Notes under the pieces: generated by a model | Told to the model about the DNA's origin: nothing | Seen by the model: the letters and a program-made list of their open reading frames with translations, nothing else | The model's database searches: none | Shown: piece after piece, positions 1,959 through 33,363 of the stretch | How the letters are laid out: each line of letters begins with the position of its first letter | Numbering within the stretch: position 1 is the stretch's first letter | Source: Clostridia bacterium | GTDB lineage: Bacteria > Bacillota > Clostridia > Oscillospirales > Acutalibacteraceae | NCBI GenBank assembly: GCA_017461235.1 | Contig: JAFTYU010000018.1 | Coordinates: 1-33,799, forward strand | Length of the DNA: 33,799 bases | Direction of reading: 5' to 3' | Program-made: the position numbers and the translations under genes

Positions 1959-1997
1959 AAAAAAGCCGCTTGCTTCACGAAAGCAAGCGGCTTTTTT
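1959..1997. terminator. Bidirectional terminator at the end of the rnf operon
   Basis: A perfect stem of about 17 bp (1959-1975 with 1981-1997) with a 5-base loop, A-rich on one side and T-rich on the other, so it works on both strands. It overlaps the rnfB stop codon region and ends the minus-strand operon. Confidence 0.93.
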
Positions 1998-2806
1998 TAT
2001 TCACCCTTAGGTGTTATTAATTCAATACATCCAATGGGGCAGGCTTCATGACATTTGCCGCATCCGACACATTTTTCGGGGTCAACCGTTGCCAGGAAGT
2101 TTTCAACTTTAACGGCATCATGCTCACAAGCCTTTACGCATTTCATACAACCGATACAGGCCGCCTTGCAATGCTTGCGTGCTACAGCGCCTTTTTCGTG
2201 GTTTTTACAAAGAACCGTAGCCTGAGTCACATTAAGCGGTAACATTGAAATAATGCCCTTAGGACAGGCTTTAACACAAGCCTTACAGCTATGGCAAGCG
2301 ATGGTGGATATACGCGCAACGCCGTCACAAATGTGGATTGCATCAAATTCACAAGCATCAACGCAATCACCGAGACCTAAACAACCGTAGGTACATTCTT
2401 TTGCACCGCCGAAAAGCTGGGAAGCCATACGACAGCTGCTGACTCCCTGATAATTCATCTTATCTTCTGAATTAGATGAGTTACCCATACACTGCACAAC
2501 GGCAACTGTGGGAAGAACTGTTGCTGCCTCTGTACCCATTATTGCCGCAATTTCTGCGGCAGCTTTGTTACCGCCGGGTGCGCAAAGATTGGTTTGTGTT
2601 GTGGTGCCTGATGAAAGTGCGGCAGCATAGCCTGCACAACCTGAAAAACCACACGCACCGCAGTTAGCACCGGGGAGTACCTCGGTGATTTTTTCTGCCT
2701 TTTCGTCAACCGGGACTGCCATAATTTTTGACGCTATGGCAAGACCTAGGCCTAAAATAAGACCGATACCTGCTACAAGGAGAACGGGAAATAAAATATC
2801 ACTCAT
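1997..2806 (-). CDS. rnfB: Rnf complex subunit B (iron-sulfur protein)
   Basis: This 269-residue protein is the ferredoxin-facing electron-entry subunit of the Rnf complex (ferredoxin:NAD+ oxidoreductase, ion-pumping). An N-terminal membrane anchor (FPVLLVAGIGLILGLGLAIA) is followed by the Fe-S motif GANCGACGFSGC with a further C downstream (NLCAPGG). Four ferredoxin-like cysteine blocks then follow: CTYGCLGLGDCVDAC, CHSCKACVKACP, CKAACIGCMKCVKAC and CVGCGKCHEACP. The multi-cluster C-terminus is typical of clostridial RnfB. The ATG has GGAGG upstream, 13 bases after the rnfA stop. It is the last gene of the operon, followed immediately by a strong terminator. Confidence 0.96.
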   Translation of the reverse strand: MSDILFPVLLVAGIGLILGLGLAIASKIMAVPVDEKAEKITEVLPGANCGACGFSGCAGYAAALSSGTTTQTNLCAPGGNKAAAEIAAIMGTEAATVLPTVAVVQCMGNSSNSEDKMNYQGVSSCRMASQLFGGAKECTYGCLGLGDCVDACEFDAIHICDGVARISTIACHSCKACVKACPKGIISMLPLNVTQATVLCKNHEKGAVARKHCKAACIGCMKCVKACEHDAVKVENFLATVDPEKCVGCGKCHEACPIGCIELITPKGE

Positions 2807-2819
2807 AATTTACGCCTCC

Positions 2820-3416
2820 TTATGAACCAAATATGCCGTCAACAACACCTGAAAAACCAAGGAAGGAAACAGATGTTAATGATGCTGCAATAAGTGTTGA
2901 AGGCAAGCCCTTCAGAAATTCGGGAATATCTGCAGTTTCAAGTCTTGAACGAACGCCTGCAAAGATAAGCATTGCAACCATAAAGCCGATACCTGCGCCG
3001 AGTGTGTTTATCATTGAAATACCGAATGAATAACCTTCTTCCAGATTGAGAAGAACAACGCCGAGAACGGCACAGTTTGTTGTAATAAGCGGAAGATATA
3101 TGCCTAAAGAGTTGTAAAGAGATTTTATGTATTTCTTTAAAACTATCTCAACTAACTGAACGAGAGCGGCTATAACAAGGATAAATATAATGGTTTGTAA
3201 GTATTCTAAATGTTTTGCAACCAGCAGTGTGTTTATGGGATAAGTAACTGCAGTAGAGATGAGCATAACGAATATAACCGCAACACTCATACCCATAGCG
3301 GTATTTACTTTCTTTGAAACACCAAGGAAGGGGCATATACCGAGGAACTTGCAAAGAACAAAGTTTTCGGTAAGTATAGCAGTAAGAAGTACTGAGAAAA
3401 GCTGTGTAGCAGTCAT
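2820..3416 (-). CDS. rnfA: Rnf complex subunit A (membrane protein)
   Basis: This 198-residue integral membrane subunit of the Rnf complex has about six hydrophobic segments. It contains the family-typical TENFVLCKFLGICPFLGVS near the N-terminus and TTNCAVLGVVLLN in the middle. RnfA and RnfE form a pseudo-symmetric pair in which the conserved Cys residues hold a membrane-embedded iron-sulfur cluster; both Cys-containing segments are visible here. The start codon overlaps the rnfE stop by 4 bases (ATGA), and a GGAGG site lies inside the rnfE 3' end, so translation is coupled. Confidence 0.96.
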   Translation of the reverse strand: MTATQLFSVLLTAILTENFVLCKFLGICPFLGVSKKVNTAMGMSVAVIFVMLISTAVTYPINTLLVAKHLEYLQTIIFILVIAALVQLVEIVLKKYIKSLYNSLGIYLPLITTNCAVLGVVLLNLEEGYSFGISMINTLGAGIGFMVAMLIFAGVRSRLETADIPEFLKGLPSTLIAASLTSVSFLGFSGVVDGIFGS

Positions 3417-4159
3417 ATTTTCTTATCCTCCCTTTCTGAAACAACTTTTGAACAAGTGGATGCAAGCGGACAACTTTCGCAACCGTGGAGTTCTGCTTTG
3501 GGAAGCTTCTTTTTATCGCCGATTTTATTGGAAAGAGCAATAAGAACACCGAAAACAAAGAAACCACCGGCAGGAAGAATGAAAATTGTCATAGGCGTAT
3601 TAAGAATTGTTATTCCGTTGAAGCCGCCTAAAACATTGTCCCCGAAAACGCCTAAAAGGTCTTGTGCTTCTGCAAAAAGAGAGCCGTTACCGAGAAATTC
3701 TCTTATGGTTGCCATACAGAAAAGCGCTGCTGTGAAACCGATACCCATGCCTAAACCGTCAACAGCGGAAGCGATAACGGGATTCTTGTTGGCGAATGCT
3801 TCTGCTCTGCCCAATATGATACAGTTAACAACGATAAGTGGAAGATATACGCCCAAAGCGGCGTCAAGGGCAGGAACAAAAGCTTTAACAATCATCTGAA
3901 CAATTGTAACGAATGAGGCGATGATAACAACGTAAGCAGGGATTCTGACCTTATCGGGAATCACTTTACGTAAAGCCGAAATAACAATATTGGAGCAAAC
4001 GAGAACGAGTGTTGCAGCGATGCCCATACCGATTGCGTTAACCATCGATGTGGAAGTTGCAAGAGTAGGACAGGTGCCGAGAACAAGTCTCAAAACAGGG
4101 TTCTCACGAAGAAGACCTTTTGTAAACTCTTTTCTGAGTGAGCATTTATTTTCAGCCAT
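3413..4159 (-). CDS. rnfE: Rnf complex subunit E (membrane protein)
   Basis: This is the partner of RnfA in the membrane part of the complex, about 248 residues. Diagnostic segments are KGLLRENPVLRLVLGTCPTL near the N-terminus and GVYLPLIVVNCIILGRAEAF in the middle. A longer GTG start at 4168 is possible, but AGGTGG sits 5 bases before the ATG at 4159, which I take as the true start. The C-terminal tail is soluble and adds a Cys cluster (CESCPLASTCS), an extension seen in some clostridial RnfE. It overlaps rnfG by 8 bases upstream and rnfA by 4 bases downstream. Confidence 0.95.
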   Translation of the reverse strand: MAENKCSLRKEFTKGLLRENPVLRLVLGTCPTLATSTSMVNAIGMGIAATLVLVCSNIVISALRKVIPDKVRIPAYVVIIASFVTIVQMIVKAFVPALDAALGVYLPLIVVNCIILGRAEAFANKNPVIASAVDGLGMGIGFTAALFCMATIREFLGNGSLFAEAQDLLGVFGDNVLGGFNGITILNTPMTIFILPAGGFFVFGVLIALSNKIGDKKKLPKAELHGCESCPLASTCSKVVSEREDKKI

Positions 4160-4736
4160 TATTTCCACCTGCCTTTATTGATTCGTATGCGCTGAAGGAT
4201 TGGTTAACAGCGTCTGTTACAGCTTTTGATGATATTGTGGCGCCTGAAACAGCCTGTATTTCTGTATCTGTTTTTTCGTTTTTATTGACACCGATGATTC
4301 CTGTTCTTTCTATATACTGACTAAGGAAATTTTCGGTGTTTACTTTCATTCCCAGACCGGGAGTGTCATTGATAGATGTGATTTCCACACCTGTGATTTT
4401 ATCAGTTTCTGCAGAGATACCTACCATTGCACTAAGGTCACCGCCGTAGCTTTTTACCGTAACGCTGAAAACATAACCTGTTATGTTGCCTTTTTCACCC
4501 TGTGCTTCGTAGTACGTGTAGGTTTCGCCGTTTACATCAACAGTTTTTTCATCGGAGAAATTTGTGGCATCTGCGAAAACCGCAGTTTTTGCCGCCATTG
4601 CGGCTTGAATCTCCAATTCATCAATTCTGTCTTCAGTTAAAAGATTTGTACCGGCAAGGAGCGCCGTGCAAATCGTTGCAATAACAAACAACATTATTGC
4701 AGGAACAAGTATTTCTTTTAATGACTTGTTTTTCAT
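4152..4736 (-). CDS. rnfG: Rnf complex subunit G (covalent FMN protein)
   Basis: This 194-residue subunit has a single N-terminal membrane helix (about residues 8-30) and an FMN-binding domain. The flavinylation motif SGATISS lies at residues 164-170, with Thr167 the expected covalent FMN site. Attachment needs the transferase ApbE, which is not encoded in this window. The ATG overlaps the rnfD stop as ATGA, with AGGAGG about 10 bases upstream inside rnfD. Length and motif position match the family. Confidence 0.95.
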   Translation of the reverse strand: MKNKSLKEILVPAIMLFVIATICTALLAGTNLLTEDRIDELEIQAAMAAKTAVFADATNFSDEKTVDVNGETYTYYEAQGEKGNITGYVFSVTVKSYGGDLSAMVGISAETDKITGVEITSINDTPGLGMKVNTENFLSQYIERTGIIGVNKNEKTDTEIQAVSGATISSKAVTDAVNQSFSAYESIKAGGNNG

Positions 4737-5731
4737 TCTGCTTTAGCCTCCTTCTGCTTTTTTTCTTTAATATAGCCGAAGGGCTTGAGCTTTGTAAGAT
4801 TGTCAATATGGGGAACAAGAAGGTTCATAAGAATGATGGCGAATGAAACACCTTCATTGTAACTGCCGAACTGTCTTATGAGAGCAGCTACAAGACCGCA
4901 ACCGATACCGTAAATGATTTTACCTTTTGATGTAAGGGGACAGGTAGCATAATCAGTTGCCATAAATATAGCACCAATAAGAAGACCGCCACCTAAAAGA
5001 TTGTATGCAAGATAGTTTGGGTCACCTTTACCTGCGATGAGCATAAATACAGCAACTGTACCGATGAACGTCAAGGGAATTGAAGGTGATATAACTTTTC
5101 TTATAAGAAGATACAGGCCACCGATAATTAAGGCAATAGCACAGGTTTCACCAAGGCAGCCTGCGCGCTGACCTATGAGCATATCGAGAAGGTCAGGGGT
5201 AGGTGTGGTGCCGTTCTGAATTTCGAAAAGGGGAGTAGCAGTTGTAACAGCGTCAACAGTTTCGCCCCATTTGTAAGGCTCTACCCATTTTGACATAGGT
5301 CCTGCGAAGGATACCATAAGAACGATTCTTCCCATAAGAGCAGGGTTAACGAAGTTCTGACCGATACCGCCGAAGAACTGTTTAACAACAACTATCGCTA
5401 CAAATGCGCCGATAGGAATCATCCACAACGGTAAGGTGGAAGGAAGATTGAACGCTAATAAAAGACCTGTAACAACTGCACTTAAATCTTTTATGGTGTT
5501 ATCGCGTTTAAGTAATTTTCTGGTTATGTACTCAAAAAGCACGCAGGAAACAACGCTTACGGCATTTACCGCAAGAGCCCTTGGTCCGAAAATCCACACC
5601 GATGCAACAAGGGCGGGTACAAGAGCTATTATAACATCAAGCATCATACCCTGTGAAGTTTCGTGGGATTTAAAGTGAGGTGATGCCGCTACAGTTGGTT
5701 TGATTTTTTGAATTAACGCGTTATCAGCCAT
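4733..5731 (-). CDS. rnfD: Rnf complex subunit D (covalent FMN membrane protein)
   Basis: This polytopic membrane subunit is about 332 residues from the ATG at 5731. That start is preferred over GTG at 5740 because AGGAAGG lies 8 bases before it. The motif DAVTTATPL (around residues 161-169 of the chosen start) is the covalent FMN site, with the second Thr of TAT as attachment residue. VNPALMGRIVLM and FMATDYATCPLT are also family-typical. RnfD works with RnfG in moving electrons through the membrane part of the complex. It overlaps the end of rnfC by 8 bases and the start of rnfG by 4. Confidence 0.95.
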   Translation of the reverse strand: MADNALIQKIKPTVAASPHFKSHETSQGMMLDVIIALVPALVASVWIFGPRALAVNAVSVVSCVLFEYITRKLLKRDNTIKDLSAVVTGLLLAFNLPSTLPLWMIPIGAFVAIVVVKQFFGGIGQNFVNPALMGRIVLMVSFAGPMSKWVEPYKWGETVDAVTTATPLFEIQNGTTPTPDLLDMLIGQRAGCLGETCAIALIIGGLYLLIRKVISPSIPLTFIGTVAVFMLIAGKGDPNYLAYNLLGGGLLIGAIFMATDYATCPLTSKGKIIYGIGCGLVAALIRQFGSYNEGVSFAIILMNLLVPHIDNLTKLKPFGYIKEKKQKEAKAE

Positions 5732-7070
5732 TTTTTGCACCTTCCTCTCTCAACATATCTTTAGCTAAAACTACATACTGTACCAAGGGTCTTCCTGCAG
5801 GGCAGGCATAGGCACAGGTTCCGCATTGCATACAAGCAATAACGTTACTTTGTTTTAATCCGTCAAAGTCGCGTACTTTTACAGAACGCATAATATTTGT
5901 AGGCATAAGACCCATAGGGCAAACCTGACTGCATCTGCCGCAACGGATACAGTTGTTATCCGGCTTTTCACGAAGGGTACCCTTTGAAAAAGCAAGCACT
6001 GCGTTATAGCTTTTAATAATTGGTACGTTGGTGTTCACAAGTGCGGTACCCATCATAGGACCGCCTGCGATAACCTTATCAAGGTCGGGCTTGAAACCGC
6101 CGCAGAAATCAATGAGCTCGTTAAGGTTTGTACCGATAGGAACGCGGACGTTCTGTGGTTTTATAATAGCGGAACCGTCAACGGTAAGAGAACGGCTGAC
6201 TAAAGGTTTACCTGTTTCAAGATACCTGCCGATAAAAGCGGTACTTGTAACGTTCATTACGATTATACCTACGTCTGCAGGCAGCTTTCCTAAAGGAATT
6301 TTTCTGCCGGTTGCGGAGTAAACAATCATTTTCTCGGCACCCTGGGGATAGCGTGATTTGAGTGCCATAACCTTGATGCTGCCGTCACCGACTTCATCGG
6401 CAACTTTCTGAAGCTTCACAATAGCGGCAGGCTTGTTATCTTCAACAGCAATAACTGCGTGCGGAATATTGAGATATTCTTTAATAATCATAAGACTTCT
6501 TATGATATAAAGTGTGTTATCAAGACATTCGCGGTAGTCAACCGTGATATGGGGTTCACATTCTGCGGCGTTGACAACAATAGTGTCAATGGGTTTGTCG
6601 GGAGAAAGTGCAAACTTAACGTGGCTGGGGAAGCCTGCACCGCCAAGACCAACAAGACCTGAATCGCGGACAGCTTTTCTGAAATCATCTGCATTATTTA
6701 CAACGGGGATTTCAATACCGTCAAAAAGAGCCATTTCGCCATCGGATTCAATAGTAACCGCGGGAGCCTGCCTGCCGTTGGCAAGAACAGTATCAGCGAT
6801 AGCGGTAACTTTACCTGATATTGAAGCGTGTATAGGTGCAGAGATGAACTTATCACTATCACCTATAATCTGACCTACCTTTACAGTGTCACCAACTTTA
6901 ACGGTAGGCGTACAGGGAGCACCGAGGTGTTGTTGCATAGGCAGAACAACCTTCTCGGGAGCAGGCATTCTGATGATTTTGCAATCTTCGGTGTTTTTGT
7001 TGTGGGGAACTTTGACACCACCGCGACCTCTTGCGGCAGGAGAAAGTACACCTGCAATATGTTTTAACAT
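5724..7070 (-). CDS. rnfC: Rnf complex subunit C (NADH-binding, Fe-S)
   Basis: This 448-residue peripheral subunit reduces NAD+. The N-terminal region carries the SLBB/biotinyl-like fold (SAPIHASISGKVTAI). The Rossmann-like FMN/NADH domain contains GLVGLGGAGFPSHVK and VNAAECEPHITVDYR. The C-terminus has two 4Fe-4S motifs, CIRCGRCSQVCPMG and CMQCGTCAYACPAG. It follows the Gx-family gene with a 4-7 base overlap and opens the rnfCDGEAB block, the standard clostridial order. Confidence 0.96.
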   Translation of the reverse strand: MLKHIAGVLSPAARGRGGVKVPHNKNTEDCKIIRMPAPEKVVLPMQQHLGAPCTPTVKVGDTVKVGQIIGDSDKFISAPIHASISGKVTAIADTVLANGRQAPAVTIESDGEMALFDGIEIPVVNNADDFRKAVRDSGLVGLGGAGFPSHVKFALSPDKPIDTIVVNAAECEPHITVDYRECLDNTLYIIRSLMIIKEYLNIPHAVIAVEDNKPAAIVKLQKVADEVGDGSIKVMALKSRYPQGAEKMIVYSATGRKIPLGKLPADVGIIVMNVTSTAFIGRYLETGKPLVSRSLTVDGSAIIKPQNVRVPIGTNLNELIDFCGGFKPDLDKVIAGGPMMGTALVNTNVPIIKSYNAVLAFSKGTLREKPDNNCIRCGRCSQVCPMGLMPTNIMRSVKVRDFDGLKQSNVIACMQCGTCAYACPAGRPLVQYVVLAKDMLREEGAKNG

Positions 7071-28237: not shown

Positions 28238-28269
28238 AATCACACCTCATAAATCTGTGTTTGAAACCC

Positions 28270-28299
28270 ATTATATCATACATACCGCTACATTTCCAA
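28270..28299 (-). promoter_or_regulatory. Promoter of the GH39-like unit, homologous to the GH16 promoter
   Basis: Minus strand: TTGGAA (28294-28299), 18-base spacer, TATAAT (28270-28275). The stretch GGAAATGTAGCGG-n5-ATGATATAATGGGTTT is matched almost base for base in front of the GH16 gene (30783-30812). Confidence 0.7.
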
Positions 28300-28309
28300 C
28301 ATACCTGTA

Positions 28310-28351
28310 AAAATTTTTACTGAATAATACAAAGAACAGGAACATCAAAAA
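28310..28351 (-). repeat. Inter-operon repeat, copy A
   Basis: Minus-strand reading starts GATGTTCCTGTTCTTTGTAT and continues with TATTCAGTAAAAATTTTTAC. The copy at 32655-32696 matches at over 80%. A shorter copy is at 30828-30857. It includes the near-palindrome GTAAAAATTTTTAC and sits just upstream of the promoter of the GH39-like gene. Confidence 0.75.
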
Positions 28352-28404
28352 ACGAGAGGTTTTCGCCTTCGGCGAGGGGGTTCAAATCCCTGTTTATTCC
28401 GCAA
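28352..28404 (+). other. Degenerate tRNA 3'-end-like sequence (class II, Leu/Ser type?)
   Basis: On the plus strand, a small hairpin TCGCC-TTC-GGCGA (like a long variable arm) is followed by GGGGG-TTCAAAT-CCCTG, a recognisable T-arm with G-rich stem, then TTTATTCCGCA in the place of an acceptor 3' strand. The arm lengths do not fit an intact tRNA exactly, no 5' half is present, and CCA is not encoded. It may be a second tRNA-derived scar facing the tRNA-Pro fragment, or partly a terminator hairpin on the minus strand (T6 follows there). Confidence 0.3.
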
Positions 28405-28413
28405 ATTAAAAAA

Positions 28414-28445
28414 TAAAGATGTGTACGATTCGTACACACCTTCAT
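28414..28445. terminator. Palindromic hairpin between the two tRNA-like fragments
   Basis: A 19-base near-perfect palindrome TGTGTACGATTCGTACACA (28420-28438), flanked by A6TAAAG on the left and a T-rich run on the right, so it could terminate transcription on either strand. Confidence 0.75.
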
Positions 28446-28448
28446 TTT

Positions 28449-28493
28449 TGGTCGAGATGACGGGATTTGAACCCACAGCCTCTACGTCCCGAA
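28449..28493 (-). pseudogene. 3' half of tRNA-Pro(CGG), attachment-site-like remnant
   Basis: Read on the minus strand, the 45 bases form the complete 3' half of a proline tRNA. They comprise anticodon loop TTCGGGA (anticodon CGG), anticodon stem 3' strand CGTAG, variable loop AGGCT, T-stem GTGGG/CCCGT around TTCAAAT, acceptor CATCTCG, discriminator A and encoded CCA. Every segment has its exact canonical length. The sequence 5' of the loop (ACATC) does not pair with CGTAG, and no CGAGATG acceptor strand exists nearby, so the 5' half is absent. Identity starting at the anticodon loop and running to the 3' end is what tyrosine integrases that target tRNA genes leave at the distal junction. Confidence 0.85.
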
Positions 28494-28634
28494 AAGATGT
28501 CCCCGTCTGCTCTCAGGAACTCCACACAACAGCTTGTGCTTTGGGAATGCTCTTTGAAGCTGAATTTCACACTGTTTTCAAATAGTCCAACCCTGTCTGT
28601 GGGCTTTATGTGGTCGTTGGTGGGTTTCAAAAAA
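28494..28634. other. Non-coding junction segment
   Basis: This 140-bp stretch lies between the tRNA-Pro half and the stop of the immunity-like gene. A minus-strand frame of 62 codons runs through it into the tRNA sequence, but it has no ribosome binding site and its end is tRNA DNA. I see no promoter, terminator or protein similarity. It would be the terminal sequence of the putative integrated element. Confidence 0.5.
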
Positions 28635-29387
28635 TTAGATTTTCTTCAACTTTAAATTTAATGCTTTAATTGTACTGCAGTCATATGAATTATCTGGATT
28701 TTCTAAATAATCATCAGCCCAGAAAACACTTTCATTTTCAACAATCAAACGGCCTTCGTGGATTTCTCTTGTATAGTTTTCTGTTGCAGGCATAATCTTC
28801 AACATTTGTACTCCTTCAAAACATAGTTCAACAACTCCGAACCATCCACTATTATCAAAAATTGCACTTACCTTTGTATACGAATCAGATTCTTCGTAAT
28901 TGATTTTCTCAAGTGTACTATCATGAAAACCCGCAAATTTTTTCATGAAGTCATCTGCATCCGCTTGAGTTGAAATATAGTTCCACTCATTTGCATCTTT
29001 CAAGGTGCGAATAGATATATCGTACACTCCCATTGAAACTGATTTTTTTCTTAAAATCTCACCAAGGAAAGCGTAGTTTTCACACACATCAGGATAACCC
29101 CTCATTTTATTAACTTCTATAAATTCGATTCCGTTCTTTTTGCAAAAATGTTTGTATTTCAATATACTTACACTATCATATGTAACAAAATCTTCGCAGT
29201 CAGCTTGAATCACCTCAACCAGTGGTTTTGCAGGCGAAACACTTTTATCTAAATAATCAACCAATTCAAAAGAATTGGTATGGGGGTTTAAAACAATATA
29301 TTGCAAAAACCAACCATCATCAACAGTTGAATATACAATTGACTTGAAATATTTATTCTCGTTCTTATCAAAAACTCTAACAAACAT
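28635..29387 (-). CDS. Immunity-like conserved hypothetical protein
   Basis: This is a 250-residue soluble protein in two parts. The N-terminal ~125 residues (RVFDKNENKYFKSIVYSTVD, GWFLQYIVLNPHTNSFELVD) form one domain of unknown function. The C-terminal part begins FAGFHDSTLEKINYEES and continues WFGVVELCFEGVQMLKIMPA. An F-H-D-x-x-L start followed by a hydrophobic beta strand and a late F-W-A-D-D block is typical of small immunity-type proteins found near polymorphic toxins in Firmicutes. No toxin gene is in the window. ATG at 29387 has only a weak ribosome binding site. It follows the DUF6054-like gene by 35 bases. Confidence 0.6.
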   Translation of the reverse strand: MFVRVFDKNENKYFKSIVYSTVDDGWFLQYIVLNPHTNSFELVDYLDKSVSPAKPLVEVIQADCEDFVTYDSVSILKYKHFCKKNGIEFIEVNKMRGYPDVCENYAFLGEILRKKSVSMGVYDISIRTLKDANEWNYISTQADADDFMKKFAGFHDSTLEKINYEESDSYTKVSAIFDNSGWFGVVELCFEGVQMLKIMPATENYTREIHEGRLIVENESVFWADDYLENPDNSYDCSTIKALNLKLKKI

Positions 29388-29422: not shown

Positions 29423-29749
29423 TCACAACAACTCTCTCAGCTTATCAAGGAAAGCTTCTTCGCCCAAGGTATTCACCTTGAATAACATCGCCTGACTTCC
29501 GCCCGATGTAATAGCGGAAAGATAAATAGGACCGTTCGCATTTTGAAACAATGTAACATTCATACTCACACGGTTACCGCCTGCATAGCTGTATCTTTCA
29601 AATACACGAACACTGCACCGTGCATCACCATCAAAAATATCGCTTGAATCTTCGAAGGATGCCGACATACTGCCATTCAGTATTCCGTTCTCAATTGTCT
29701 TCAAAATCTGTCCGAAATCACCATTAAGAACCTGCTCTAATTTTGCCAT
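29423..29749 (-). CDS. DUF6054-like conserved hypothetical protein
   Basis: A 108-residue soluble protein starting MAKLEQVLNGDFGQILKTIE, with SMSASFEDSSD, CSVRVFERYSYAGGNRVSMN and the near-C-terminal ISAITSGGSQAMLFKVNT-type block (SAITSGGSQAMLFKVNTLGE). This pattern matches, as I recall it, the family DUF6054, widespread in Clostridia and of unknown function; I could not search to confirm. ATG has a strong GGAGGAG site. It lies between GH16 and the immunity-like gene, in one minus-strand unit. Confidence 0.7.
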   Translation of the reverse strand: MAKLEQVLNGDFGQILKTIENGILNGSMSASFEDSSDIFDGDARCSVRVFERYSYAGGNRVSMNVTLFQNANGPIYLSAITSGGSQAMLFKVNTLGEEAFLDKLRELL

Positions 29750-29824: not shown

Positions 29825-30745
29825 TTACTCATAACCGTTTATATCTTTATAAACACGGACATAATCTATCAGCCATTCTATTGGATATTCATTTTCAGGT
29901 TCATCCCAACCGCTGAAATCAGAGTTGATATACATAGACAGAATCATACACATTCTGTATTGGGGTGATTCTTCGGTCTGTGCCACTTCTTTTCCGTCCA
30001 CATAAAAGGTTATCCCTTCAGGTCTCCAATCCATTGCATAAGTGTGGAATTCGTTAACATAATTTTTTGAGAAACCCTTAAGATTAACCTCGCTTGACCA
30101 TTCATTGAGATTCGGATCATCCCAGGCATGAACCTTTGGGTGAAATACTCCCGGGTTATCAAAGAATGTTTCTAATACATCTATTTCACCATTCTGCTTT
30201 GTCTTTGTTGAGTCAGGAGTGGTATCATCCTCAGTACCAATAAGCCACCAGGCTGCATATCCACCGCCCTTGGTGTCGGGCATTTTCATTCGTATCTCAA
30301 AATAACCGTATTGGGTTGCATAGCCTTCGAAGGGCTCTACCTCCATCTGTTGCGCACCACCGGGATGCAAATTATTCTTCTCCCAGGTCTGAATACCATT
30401 AGCTATCCATAAAAGGTTATCGGGATCTACCGAACCCGGCTGACCGCCGAAGTAATCCGGAGAATCTTTTGTAATGTACAGATTCAGGCAACCATTCTCA
30501 ACTTTATATCTTGCAGATGAGCCTGCTGTGTTAGTAGTACAGTGAGGCAGATACTGCGGTAACCAGAATTCTGCATCTAATTTGCCATCATTAAATTCGG
30601 TGCTGAAATCAAGGGTATATCCTTCCTTTTCGGGAACTCCGTTCTCAAGGTCGCTTTCTTCTGCAGGGTTCGCACCACAGCCTCCTAACAACGAACCGAT
30701 TAACATAGTTAATGCAAGTAACAAAGATATTTTCTTTCTGTTCAT
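29825..30745 (-). CDS. GH16 family lipoprotein glucanase
   Basis: This 306-residue protein has a lipoprotein signal peptide: KKISLLLALTMLIGSLLGGC, with lipobox LGGC and lipidated Cys23. The catalytic domain carries the GH16 signature GEIDVLETF, with nucleophile Glu187, Asp189 and acid/base Glu192. YGYFEIRMKMP, HTYAMDWRPEGITFYVDG and IDYVRVYKD are conserved GH16 segments. The enzyme should sit on the outer membrane face and cleave beta-1,3(4)-glucans or related galactans; the subfamily cannot be told from sequence alone. Its promoter is a near copy of that of the GH39-like gene. DUF6054-like and immunity-like genes follow downstream. Confidence 0.92.
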   Translation of the reverse strand: MNRKKISLLLALTMLIGSLLGGCGANPAEESDLENGVPEKEGYTLDFSTEFNDGKLDAEFWLPQYLPHCTTNTAGSSARYKVENGCLNLYITKDSPDYFGGQPGSVDPDNLLWIANGIQTWEKNNLHPGGAQQMEVEPFEGYATQYGYFEIRMKMPDTKGGGYAAWWLIGTEDDTTPDSTKTKQNGEIDVLETFFDNPGVFHPKVHAWDDPNLNEWSSEVNLKGFSKNYVNEFHTYAMDWRPEGITFYVDGKEVAQTEESPQYRMCMILSMYINSDFSGWDEPENEYPIEWLIDYVRVYKDINGYE

Positions 30746-30782
30746 ACTGCACCATCCTCAAAAATTCTCAATCATCAAACTC

Positions 30783-30812
30783 ATTATACCATGCCTTCCG
30801 CCACATTTCCAC
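30783..30812 (-). promoter_or_regulatory. Promoter of the GH16 unit
   Basis: Minus strand: GTGGAA (30807-30812), 18-base spacer, TATAAT (30783-30788). It shares GGAAATGTRGCGG-n5-ATGRTATAATGRGTTT with the GH39-like promoter. Confidence 0.7.
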
Positions 30813-30827
30813 AGTTACATTTATGTT

Positions 30828-30857
30828 CAAAAACTTTACTGCATAATACAAAGAAAT
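30828..30857 (-). repeat. Inter-operon repeat, copy B
   Basis: Minus-strand TTTCTTTGTATTATGCAGTA followed by AAGTTTTTG. It shares 18 of the first 20 bases with copy A and includes the T-rich end of the hipA terminator. It lacks the GATGTT extension of copies A and C. Confidence 0.7.
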
Positions 30858-30891: not shown

Positions 30892-32181
30892 TTACAAACC
30901 TAAAATTGTTTTTATTCTCTCAATATTTCTTTCTGACATTTCCGTTTGCCTTGCAAAGGATTCCCATTTTGAAACAGCATTTTTTACTTGCTCAATACTT
31001 TTATCTGCATCAGATTTTTTGATACCTACCTTTTCGGCAACCGTTAACATATCCTCTTTTGTTATGTTGTCAGCCTTTCCGTTAATAAGCATCTGATGAG
31101 CCTTAACCCATTGACTGTCTTTTCTGTATGCAAAGGTTACATCATAGGCAGGTGATAAAGACCAGACGCCTTTTTTATCCATAAGGAAGGATATGTTTTT
31201 GGTATGGTCATCATAGTTTTTTGCATATTCATTGAAGACCATTCGTTTGAACAATTGAATGTAGTCGCTATAAGGAAGCTTAAGCTTCTTCATTACAGAA
31301 AAAGCATCCTCGTAGGAATAAATCATTGGTGAATTAAAGTCCATATGAGCTAAAGCGCAAAGCGTTTGCATGTGCAGCTTCCTGCCGTTTTTACCTATTC
31401 TGTCAAAACGCTTTGTCATAAAATGAGCTTTTCCGTTTTCTTTGTAAAGCTTACATTCACTCATTTCTACGCCTGCTTCAACAGCCATGAGATAATAGGC
31501 ATATTCAATCTTAGTATATTCACTATCATCAGGACGAGTGTCTTTATCCTTATTGTTTTTGATATCATCAAATTTTAATAACCAATATTCATAACCCTTA
31601 CCTGCATTAATCTGACCTGAACGAATATCGTTTGTTTCAGGATTCCAGGCTATAAGAGTCTTAGCTCTTGCTCCGCCAACAGAAGAACTGCATTCCATCA
31701 ACTGAGACATAAGATTGTCGTTTTCTTCAATATGAAAATTCTCTTTTTCAGAAAGAATCTCAGAAGCAAGCTTTGTTAAAGCATCAAGGTCAACAGGCTC
31801 GTCTATAGCTCCGATTTCCTGCGAAGGCTCATATTCCAATGCACCCATACCTCTTTTGCCTGTATAACAAAGCCTTTCTATAACAGATAAGCTATCAGGC
31901 TCTCTTCCCTGACTTTCTAAATATCTGTTGATAACAATGTTACCGAATCTGTCAGGAAGCGAATCTGCAACCATACCCGGAAGTCCGTAAAAGGTTTGTT
32001 CCGGCAAGCTACGGAAAGAATAGGTAACGTTTGATAACGGCATTGTAACAGGTGAAATTTCGATATTGCTCTTCAAAAACTCATCATCATACTGAAACCC
32101 TACTAAACCATTATCCTCCTGATGAAGATAACCTACAGTAGTACCCCACATTTTAACACGAACAGTATTTACTTTTTTCAA
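30892..32181 (-). CDS. hipA: HipA-family serine/threonine kinase toxin
   Basis: This 429-residue HipA-type toxin kinase is the toxin of a type II toxin-antitoxin module. The N-terminal domain includes FRSLPEQTFYGLPGMVADSL and PDRFG (76-80). The ATP-binding loop SSSVGGARAK is at 165-174. The catalytic block NEYAKNYDDHTKNIS (Asp324/Asp325, Asn329) and the metal-binding SPAYDVTF (Asp347) are intact, so the kinase should be active. E. coli HipA phosphorylates glutamyl-tRNA synthetase and causes dormancy; the target here is not known. Its start overlaps the hipB stop by 4 bases (ATGA), ensuring coupled expression. Confidence 0.93.
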   Translation of the reverse strand: MKKVNTVRVKMWGTTVGYLHQEDNGLVGFQYDDEFLKSNIEISPVTMPLSNVTYSFRSLPEQTFYGLPGMVADSLPDRFGNIVINRYLESQGREPDSLSVIERLCYTGKRGMGALEYEPSQEIGAIDEPVDLDALTKLASEILSEKENFHIEENDNLMSQLMECSSSVGGARAKTLIAWNPETNDIRSGQINAGKGYEYWLLKFDDIKNNKDKDTRPDDSEYTKIEYAYYLMAVEAGVEMSECKLYKENGKAHFMTKRFDRIGKNGRKLHMQTLCALAHMDFNSPMIYSYEDAFSVMKKLKLPYSDYIQLFKRMVFNEYAKNYDDHTKNISFLMDKKGVWSLSPAYDVTFAYRKDSQWVKAHQMLINGKADNITKEDMLTVAEKVGIKKSDADKSIEQVKNAVSKWESFARQTEMSERNIERIKTILGL

Positions 32182-32534
32182 TCCTCATCATCCTCCCTGT
32201 CTTCTCCCCAGACCCAAGTATCATTTGAAGTCTTCTTGTCAGGTCTTGCGCGTTTTCTGATTGTTTTTTCTTCAAACATCGCTTTGTAATCAGGTTGAGG
32301 TTCAGGAATAAGCATATCAAGATTATCCAACAAATTAAATTCCGATAAAATTTTAATTATAGCAGACCATTTTGTATCGTCACCATTTTCTATACGCATT
32401 AATGTAGTTACCGAAACACCACAACGCTCAGCAAGCTGTTGCTGTGTAATATTCAAGGATACTCTATATTGTTTTATACGATTGCCAAATTCTTGTAAAA
32501 TTGCTTTTTCACTGTCAAATTGCGTAATCTTCAT
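32178..32534 (-). CDS. hipB: HipB-like XRE-family antitoxin
   Basis: This 118-residue protein has an XRE helix-turn-helix (about residues 18-66; ITQQQLAERCGVSVTTLMRI is the recognition region) and a C-terminal extension. The extension is basic (EEKTIRKRARPDKK) and then strongly acidic (WGEDREDDED); a free tail of this kind is usual for antitoxin degradation. It neutralises HipA and represses the operon. AGGAGG precedes the ATG. A pair of inverted 9-base half-sites flanks the promoter (32551-32559 and 32605-32613). Confidence 0.9.
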   Translation of the reverse strand: MKITQFDSEKAILQEFGNRIKQYRVSLNITQQQLAERCGVSVTTLMRIENGDDTKWSAIIKILSEFNLLDNLDMLIPEPQPDYKAMFEEKTIRKRARPDKKTSNDTWVWGEDREDDED

Positions 32535-32654: not shown

Positions 32655-32696
32655 AAAAAATTTTACTGCATAATTAAAAGAATAAGAAAACATCAG
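32655..32696 (-). repeat. Inter-operon repeat, copy C
   Basis: Minus-strand GATGTTTTCTTATTCTTTTA followed by ATTATGCAGTAAAATTTTTT, over 80% identical to copy A, with the near-palindrome GTAAAATTTTTTAC. It lies between the GNAT terminator and the hipBA promoter. Confidence 0.75.
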
Positions 32697-32736: not shown

Positions 32737-33363
32737 TCAGAAAAGCTGTGTAGAAAGCTTCAATTTTTCTTTCGGTGGGAATTGCTTGTCAAACTCCTCT
32801 GCCTCATCTTCATTTACAAAGTATCCCTGTGGTGGAGTGTATTCGCCTGTAACACCTTTGAGATAGCCTTTTTTCAGTTCCTTGCAAAGGAAGAATGATG
32901 CATCTGCATCTTTGGGTAAATCATGGTAACGGATACCAAATTCACCGGCATAAGTAAAACCACTTTTACCATAAAAACCAATATTTCCTTCAAAGCAGAT
33001 TGCTCCGAAGCCCATTCCCGTTGCTTTCTCCAGTGAATAGTCAAGCAGAATTTTACCATAACCCTGACGCTTCAATTCATTTGCAATACAAATAGGTCCC
33101 ATTGTAAGAATCGGAATATCTCTGCCGTCATCAGCCTTGATAACCGCCTTCATAAACATATTCTGTCCTATGATTTTGCTGTCCTTTTCCATTACGAAAT
33201 TGAGTTCGTCTATAAACGCTTCGTCATTACGGAGCTGATTTAGAACATAATGCTCAAGGCAACCGGGACGGTACACATTCCAGAATGATTCCCTTACAAG
33301 ATTTTCAACTTCTCTTTGTTCTTCTTTTCTTTCATTACGAATTATATAGTCATTTTTATTCAT
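32737..33363 (-). CDS. GNAT-family N-acetyltransferase
   Basis: This is a 208-residue protein from the ATG at 33363 (GGAGGG 6 bases upstream; the frame is open further to 33426, but that part is leader DNA). It has the GNAT acetyl-CoA-binding motif A, ANELKRQGYGKILLDYSLEK, preceded by the beta-4 strand LTMGPICI. GFGAICFEGNIGFYGKSGFT is motif B. The C-terminal extension (LKKGYLKGVTGEYTPPQGYF) is seen in a clostridial subgroup that acetylates unknown small molecules or protein N-termini. The substrate cannot be predicted. Its leader contains a hairpin (33400-33433). Confidence 0.9.
   Translation of the reverse strand: MNKNDYIIRNERKEEQREVENLVRESFWNVYRPGCLEHYVLNQLRNDEAFIDELNFVMEKDSKIIGQNMFMKAVIKADDGRDIPILTMGPICIANELKRQGYGKILLDYSLEKATGMGFGAICFEGNIGFYGKSGFTYAGEFGIRYHDLPKDADASFFLCKELKKGYLKGVTGEYTPPQGYFVNEDEAEEFDKQFPPKEKLKLSTQLF

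Follow-up and report, generated by a model that had tools for sequence, protein, structure and literature searches.

Displaced 3' half of a tRNA-Pro(CGG) gene at a probable island edge, and a genus-wide family of small structured units behind tRNA genes, in a Clostridia bacterium

The window, i.e. the whole stretch of 33,799 bases analysed here, is the complete contig C41 of a Clostridia bacterium assembly (G000). Its right-hand end carries genes on the minus strand, including a gene for a 250-residue protein without Pfam or PHROGs match (28635..29387), a DUF6054 gene (29423..29749; PF19524, E 2.4e-40), a glycoside hydrolase family 16 gene (29825..30745; PF00722), a HipA-like gene (30892..32181; PF07804 and PF13657, no match in PADLOC), an HTH protein gene in the HipB position (32178..32534; PF01381), a GNAT acetyltransferase gene (32737..33363; Pfam) with similar genes in the islands of G014:C62 and G020:C21, and a PAP2 gene cut by the contig end (33527..33799; PF01569), which matches residues 133-222 of a G020 protein at 97%. 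The missing N-terminal part of the cut PAP2 protein has no other match in the G000 assembly, where a single match was obtained. Pfam supports the GH16, DUF6054-like, GNAT and PAP2 genes named in an earlier sequence-only reading of this DNA, and its hipBA pair is found as HipA and a HipB-like HTH protein. On the left-hand side of the window, a minus-strand gene run at 1997-7070 is one which we take to resemble an Rnf electron-transport operon. The only congener match to the left-hand gene region is G020:C21, up to position 28339, and 5 of the 22 genomes give any match, the window's own included. Since this left flank matches G020:C21 only, and up to 28339, the region is a mosaic. A repeated stretch (...AAAACTTTACTGCATAATACAAAGAA) stands upstream of three different genes of the window (28264-28336, 30777-30855 and 32656-32682). 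Because the homology between the window and G020:C21 stops just past its first copy, this repeat may mark module borders.

Between the two gene regions lies the 3' half of a tRNA-Pro(CGG) gene on the minus strand (28449..28493), reaching from the anticodon loop (TTCGGG) to CCA. The sequence-only reading had described these 45 bases as such a half without its 5' partner, and both statements are borne out. The half is identical at 45/45 positions to an intact tRNA-Pro(CGG) gene of the same genome, which that reading had predicted and which is located on the minus strand of another contig (C35:558-634 by ARAGORN; 561-634 by Rfam). No whole tRNA gene is present in the window, since ARAGORN detects none and an Rfam search at gathering cut-offs is empty there. 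Matches of the sensitive Rfam mode at the junction (tmRNA, 13.5 bits; tRNA-Sec, 16.9) were discarded as they merely reflect the tRNA half and the T-arm copy. A direct repeat of the half was likewise expected and exists, but it measures 132 bp instead of 45: window 28362-28493 corresponds to C35:471-602 with 130/132 identical positions. The genome combines an intact target (C35:558-634) and a displaced fragment (28449-28493) with a direct repeat that extends from within the tRNA gene beyond its 3' end (130/132). C41 and C35 are unjoined in the assembly. On the 5' side of the intact gene, C35:660-840 holds a second tRNA 5' half whose D-loop appears by eye to be interrupted by hairpin-rich sequence, and G015:C129 shows a similar start, also by eye.

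Besides the tRNA half, the 132-bp repeat contains the hairpin TTCGCCTTCGGCGA, then a T-arm-like stretch in convergent orientation and, beyond a spacer, a terminator hairpin. The terminator-like hairpin (GTGTACGA/TCGTACAC; 28408..28448, read from the sequence) is common to the intact tRNA-Pro locus and lies within the 130/132 block. The T-arm copy GGGGGTTCAAATCCC (28376..28390, plus strand) is one arm of stem P1 of what we term a T-loop unit; its partner arm is missing in the window, and its counterpart on C35 (419-503) matches model R1. The hairpin at 28362..28375 (plus strand), shared with C35, is hairpin 3 of a type-A core and ends the truncated unit. This motif occurs exactly at nine places in G000 and at a tenth with one mismatch. 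The left-hand gene region meets the truncated unit within 28340..28361, between the end of the G020:C21 homology at 28339 and the beginning of the C35 block at 28362. The left side of the tRNA half is consequently not simply host sequence: half a T-loop unit (28362-28448) adjoins it. On the other side, a conserved flank (28494..28631) is joined to the tRNA at the anticodon loop, as established by alignment of the window with five loci in four congeners.

These loci were obtained by comparing window 28330-28640 with 40 relatives, which recovered 28494-28631 in four congeners. In G014:C62, G020:C48, G020:C21, G013:C39 and G015:C129 the flank, about 138 bp long, abuts a tRNA-Pro 3' half, with the anticodon loop (CCCGAA) as the point of junction. 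The half is plain in G014:C62 and G020:C48, broken at the T-loop by hairpins in G020:C21 and G015:C129, and broken by a longer hairpin-rich stretch in G013:C39. G013 also contains the flank in part without a tRNA half (G013:C2 and G013:C39:3348). At two of the five loci the intact tRNA-Pro gene lies on the same contig as the half: in G020:C48 the two are 5.8 kb apart with the island between them (intact gene at 6162-6238), and in G015:C129 about 2.1 kb separate them. The displaced half in G020:C48 is identical to that genome's own tRNA-Pro, though the latter agrees with G000 at only 33/45 positions of the 3' half. A Pfam scan of seven of the nine ORFs with 80 aa or more in these two islands found DUF4143/AAA_14, DUF6054-like, RNase III with dsrm and HsdM proteins, besides proteins without Pfam match. 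By eye, the window and four of the five loci have a DUF6054-like gene on their island side, and in G013:C39 it lies beyond the fragment on the other side. Relatives of DUF6054 outside these islands were seen in two viral contigs and one plasmid.

The sequence-only reading had taken the half for the edge of an integrated element extending from 28494 to higher coordinates, and had seen in the hipBA pair an addiction module that may serve to retain it. The intact gene, the repeat and the recurring junction support the edge of a tRNA island, and the direction fits the arrangement in G020:C48 and G015:C129; the integrase expected with it was not found, C41 and C35 stay unjoined, and the search for an empty site of the Pro island gave none, the left flank occurring in G020:C21 alone among the congeners. 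Six-frame searches for PF00589 gave no match on C41, C35, G020:C48 or G015:C129, the window's island being incomplete in the assembly. One may still think of an ordinary integrase island, whose tyrosine integrase gene would lie in the assembly gap between C41 and C35 and for which the T-loop units would be unrelated debris. Half, repeat and intact gene form the textbook pattern of such islands, the incompleteness of the window's island leaves room for the gene, and G000 has PF00589 matches at two places (contigs C16 and C33). Yet in G020:C48 and G015:C129 half and intact gene share one contig without a PF00589 match, and the 98% repeat continues past the terminator into the unit, so that we regard this explanation as rather unlikely.

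Compared across loci, a complete T-loop unit reads along the tRNA as follows: the 3' end of the tRNA from T-loop to CCA, a terminator, a spacer, the T-arm in inverted copy, three hairpins that make up the core, the stretch from T-loop to CCA again, and a terminator. In each unit the inverted T-arm is a copy of the T-arm of that particular host tRNA. Of this unit the window retains the terminator, hairpin 3 and what lies between them, and it lacks hairpins 1 and 2 as well as the second T-loop half. A truncated tRNA 3' part joined straight to a T-loop unit, as in the window, was also observed by eye in G002:C62 (L157:1000-1330).

Occupied and empty sites could be compared at tRNA-Gln(TTG) and at tmRNA. 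Thirteen tRNA-Gln(TTG) loci comprise one with a type-A unit, three with a type-B core and nine without a unit; for two of the latter the downstream sequence available is only about 55-62 bases long. In G020 the gene is empty, CCA being followed by GAAAAAAGCAGCC... and the terminator. In G000, CCA is followed by a new terminator, the unit, GAATCTCGCCATCCCTGCCA repeated, and then the ancestral terminator and flank. G017, G006 and G012 carry the type-B core at the same point. The tmRNA gene was found occupied at one locus (G000) and empty at one (G017). Distal terminator and flank match an empty site at G000 tRNA-Gln, G017 tRNA-Gln and G000 tmRNA, and therefore it was the unit that supplied the new tRNA 3' end. 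These comparisons indicate insertion within the last ~20 bases of the gene, from T-loop to CCA, with the 3' end rebuilt; because the direct repeat is itself ~20 bp long, the crossover is placed no more finely, and the T-loop is its upstream limit only. The type-B core also lies behind tRNA-Gln(CTG) of G000 and forms the second unit behind tRNA-Pro(GGG) of G020; a third, longer core type was recognised by eye. Another palindromic repeat family (GTGAAATATTTACTTCGTAAATGTGAAATATTCGC...) follows ancestral terminators at tRNA-Gln (L205, L173) and at tmRNA (L101).

The distribution of the units was assessed with a covariance model built from 15 copies and applied to 40 genomes at a threshold of E <= 1e-3. 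The model matches 146 places in 21 of the 40 genomes. The window's genus, represented by 22 genomes, accounts for 143 of these places, spread over 19 genomes; outside the genus there are three weak matches, in G024 and G039 (E about 1e-4 to 8e-4). Copy numbers vary widely, with 28 in G008, 18 in G000 and 14 in G020, as compared to none in G004, G009 and G010. In a class-wide sample only one of 391 genomes, the window's own, matches at E <= 1e-6 under stricter filters. The exact core pattern was met in named genomes in 19 stretches, all from MAGs titled Oscillospiraceae or Clostridia bacterium and all from the ruminant gut wherever a source is stated. No exact match of the core pattern occurs in viral_contigs, and the phage records match the tRNA-Pro part only (best 37% of the query, among 10 of 41 records listed); a phage origin was therefore dismissed.

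Within G000, 10 of the 18 matches lie 51-65 bp behind a tRNA gene and in opposite orientation, the host tRNAs being Pro CGG, Pro GGG, Leu GAG, Leu CAA, Lys, Val, Gln, Ser, Arg and Glu (the last a weak match). A further one lies 52 bp behind tmRNA. The remaining seven do not follow a tRNA or tmRNA gene directly in the assembly: five are contig-end or relic-like, one is a second Leu copy and one is truncated. Over all 146 copies, successive copies on the same strand are 136-153 bp apart in 20 of 43 cases. Units form tandem arrays with a period of about 150 bp or flank genes, defence genes among them.

Such regular spacing would also be expected from a purely local process, slippage or fold-back copying at the T-arm hairpin followed by unequal crossing-over, in which no recombinase takes part. 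The near identity of proximal and distal terminators in the Ser and Lys loci speaks for it as well; moreover, fold-back copying would yield an inverted T-arm, and stems free of mismatches would be expected under templated correction. Against this, the proximal terminator at tRNA-Gln and at tmRNA is no copy of the ancestral one, one and the same core stands behind many tRNAs, and differing cores stand behind one tRNA. We consider local duplication unlikely as the origin of the units.

Some copies are more widely spaced and enclose gene cargo. In G008:C15 (9.8 kb, at tRNA-Leu TAA) it includes DitA, DitB, a response regulator, TnpV and others. In G000:C26 (5.8 kb, tRNA-Leu GAG) the cargo comprises AIPR, a type II restriction enzyme, an EcoRI-type methylase, an HTH protein and AbiD. 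Shorter inserts carry DUF4760 and an amidase (G008:C9; 2.4 kb, tRNA-Met) or DUF4241 (G002:C62; 1.4 kb). The tRNA 3' end of the second unit of G000:C26 starts cleanly at the T-loop; the right-hand T-loop junction of G008:C15 is unclean.

The fold of the core is conserved over its sequence. In a MAFFT alignment of 15 copies, which was not fitted to the model, 99.2% of the cells are paired and double changes occur in 10 of 24 pairs, with a single one-sided (G-U-type) change in 358 cells. In the alignment of 73 distinct copies 97.0% are paired and 19 of 24 pairs show double changes, this alignment being fitted to the model, which favours pairing; its covariation score was reached in 0 of 500 shuffles. 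The latter alignment (A2) derives from 57 loci, some places being represented twice through overlapping loci, with 88 matches reduced to 73 distinct rows. For alignment A1 the copies were picked by the hairpin-3 pattern, which limits hairpin-3 variation, and three copies without a recognisable hairpin 1 were dropped, the window's truncated copy among them.

Strong covariation and an adjoining terminator hairpin would suit a structured RNA, a regulatory or processing signal travelling with tRNA genes. G-U pairs are tolerated in RNA helices. In the core helices of the 73 copies, however, there are merely 12 G-U among 1,695 cells, next to 13 A-C, the mirror image of G-U on the other strand, and hence no strand bias. 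Acceptor stems of the tRNAs at the same loci show 37 G-U and one A-C in 595 cells, and T-stems in fixed register 75 G-U and four A-C in 425. Because G-U is tolerated in RNA helices yet nearly absent from the core, the constraint looks like one at the DNA level, and it points to folded DNA (single strand or cruciform) or to hairpin-templated correction. Rfam at gathering score likewise recognised no family other than tRNA in eight unit-bearing loci and none in the window; sub-threshold matches at the eight loci (Leu_leader, RT-9 and others) were set aside as below the cut-off. A structured RNA is accordingly an improbable explanation.

No recombinase could be tied to the Pro island or to the units. 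PF00589 has a match in 21 of the 22 congeners. The copy-rich genomes G008 (28 copies) and G020 (14 copies) have one PF00589 place each, in ORFs of about 343-353 aa whose neighbourhood is similar in several congeners, and by inference these are housekeeping Xer proteins. With one place each in a conserved neighbourhood, a dedicated tyrosine integrase for the units was rejected; an Xer-like PF00589 protein could be the enzyme that acts on them. Y1 transposases (PF01797) are present in 9 of 22 genomes and were not detected in G000 and G008, the two genomes richest in copies, nor in G006 or G013; their absence from G000 and G008 led us to discard them too. A serine recombinase of phages or other elements might make the insertions. 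Close to one unit of G000 (C7:178414-178509), about 30 bp away at a contig end, is a serine-integrase-like ORF (PHROGs 'integrase', E 1.9e-32), and in two viral contigs a DUF6054 relative was seen by eye beside serine-recombinase-like ORFs. The unit at C7 is a single instance, however, and we hold this explanation to be very doubtful. At this place (G000:C7:178414-179296, L170:10415-11297) the unit stands next to the serine-integrase-like ORF without an intact tRNA. In the viral contigs, L267 and L268, the DUF6054 relative has 75% identity and is accompanied by two ORFs that resemble large serine recombinases by eye.

Taken together, we propose an explanation in two layers, which we judge to be probably correct: an island anchored in tRNA-Pro(CGG), and a genus-wide family of T-loop units of about 150 bp, both served by a putative enzyme acting in trans. 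The tRNA-Pro half is, on strong indications, the displaced end of that island. Recombination at the anticodon loop would explain why 28362-28493 contains the former 3' half together with its terminator and half a T-loop unit, the intact gene now being on C35. Along the tRNA, an island unit would consist of the tRNA 3' end, a terminator, genes, the conserved end sequence (28494-28631) and the next tRNA 3' half. The extra half unit appears to belong to the ~150-bp family, whose members insert into the terminal ~20 bases of tRNA and tmRNA genes. Each member brings a new tRNA 3' end with a terminator of its own, followed by a short spacer or genes, the inverted T-arm of the host tRNA and a core ending on the old T-loop half. 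Both kinds may be cassettes that encode no recombinase and are mobilised by a putative trans-acting enzyme that uses tRNA stem-loops as sites. The site of the T-loop unit would act in the form of a folded strand, in which the inverted T-arm, by pairing with the T-loop half, restores a tRNA-like duplex. Counting against the two-layer explanation are the unjoined contigs C41 and C35, the further inserts in three of the five tRNA-Pro halves, the flank parts without a tRNA half in G013, the seven G000 copies away from tRNA and tmRNA genes and the unclean junction of G008:C15; neither circles nor excision were observed, and the tandem arrays could come from unequal crossing-over.

Integron cassettes are arranged head-to-tail, some empty and some with genes; their attC sites are defined by fold, and the cassettes do not encode the enzyme. 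T-loop units resemble them in their arrays, their fold-conserved site and their lack of an enzyme. The fold is kept over the sequence, as the covariation shows, in the manner of integron sites, and a role as a recombination site is what we infer from it. In contrast to integrons, the anchor is a tRNA gene instead of attI, and the stem copies the T-arm of the host tRNA. The core boxes of attC, RYYYAAC and GTTRRRY, were not seen; by eye the outer stem is the tRNA T-arm half, e.g. GGGATTTG/CAAATCCC. More boldly, the units may constitute an integron-like system anchored at tRNA genes, without integron parts, in which tRNA and tmRNA genes serve as entry points, ~150-bp units with folded single-strand sites are captured serially by a recombinase in trans, every unit restores the tRNA, and cargo is stored between units. 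The stored cargo would include the defence genes (restriction-modification, AbiD and Ditmarsch-type genes). We hold this cassette reading to be rather unlikely. REP elements and MITEs, too, are small, palindromic, present in many copies and devoid of an enzyme, and T-loop units share these properties. They differ in lying precisely behind tRNA genes and rebuilding them, and the REP-type transposase PF01797 is absent from G000 and G008.

tRNA genes are classic docking sites of mobile DNA, and to our knowledge the elements that dock there bring their own integrase. As described for Islander, islands in tRNA and tmRNA genes rebuild the target, leave a displaced fragment at the far end and show a repeat inside the tRNA gene, and an encoded integrase is required (PMC4383910). 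The window's island is like those so described in its rebuilt target, displaced fragment and intragenic repeat; unlike them, no integrase was found with it, and the repeat continues through the terminator into half of another element. Mycobacteriophage Ms6 reportedly integrates in the 3' part of a tRNA gene at the T-loop (PMC1762012). T-loop units share this kind of target, but as compared to Ms6 so described they measure only ~150 bp, are gene-free or carry defence cargo, serve many tRNAs and possess a hairpin core and an inverted T-arm. A literature search of titles and abstract openings, with subscription journals and bioRxiv outside its scope, yielded no description of such structured units. 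The attached structured unit is the more novel part of the locus, as a tRNA-targeted insertion with integrase-free units; its integron-like reading is the boldest.

Many tRNA genes of one genus thus carry small, integrase-free, structured units, and a few of these loci bracket defence genes. If mobile, the units would represent a second route, besides integrons, by which genes are gathered via folded sites, and they would account for islands in tRNA genes that have no integrase. Since several contig ends of G000 lie at unit arrays, the units also affect assemblies: units were found at most 420 bp from the ends of contigs C8 (both ends), C30, C35 and C36.
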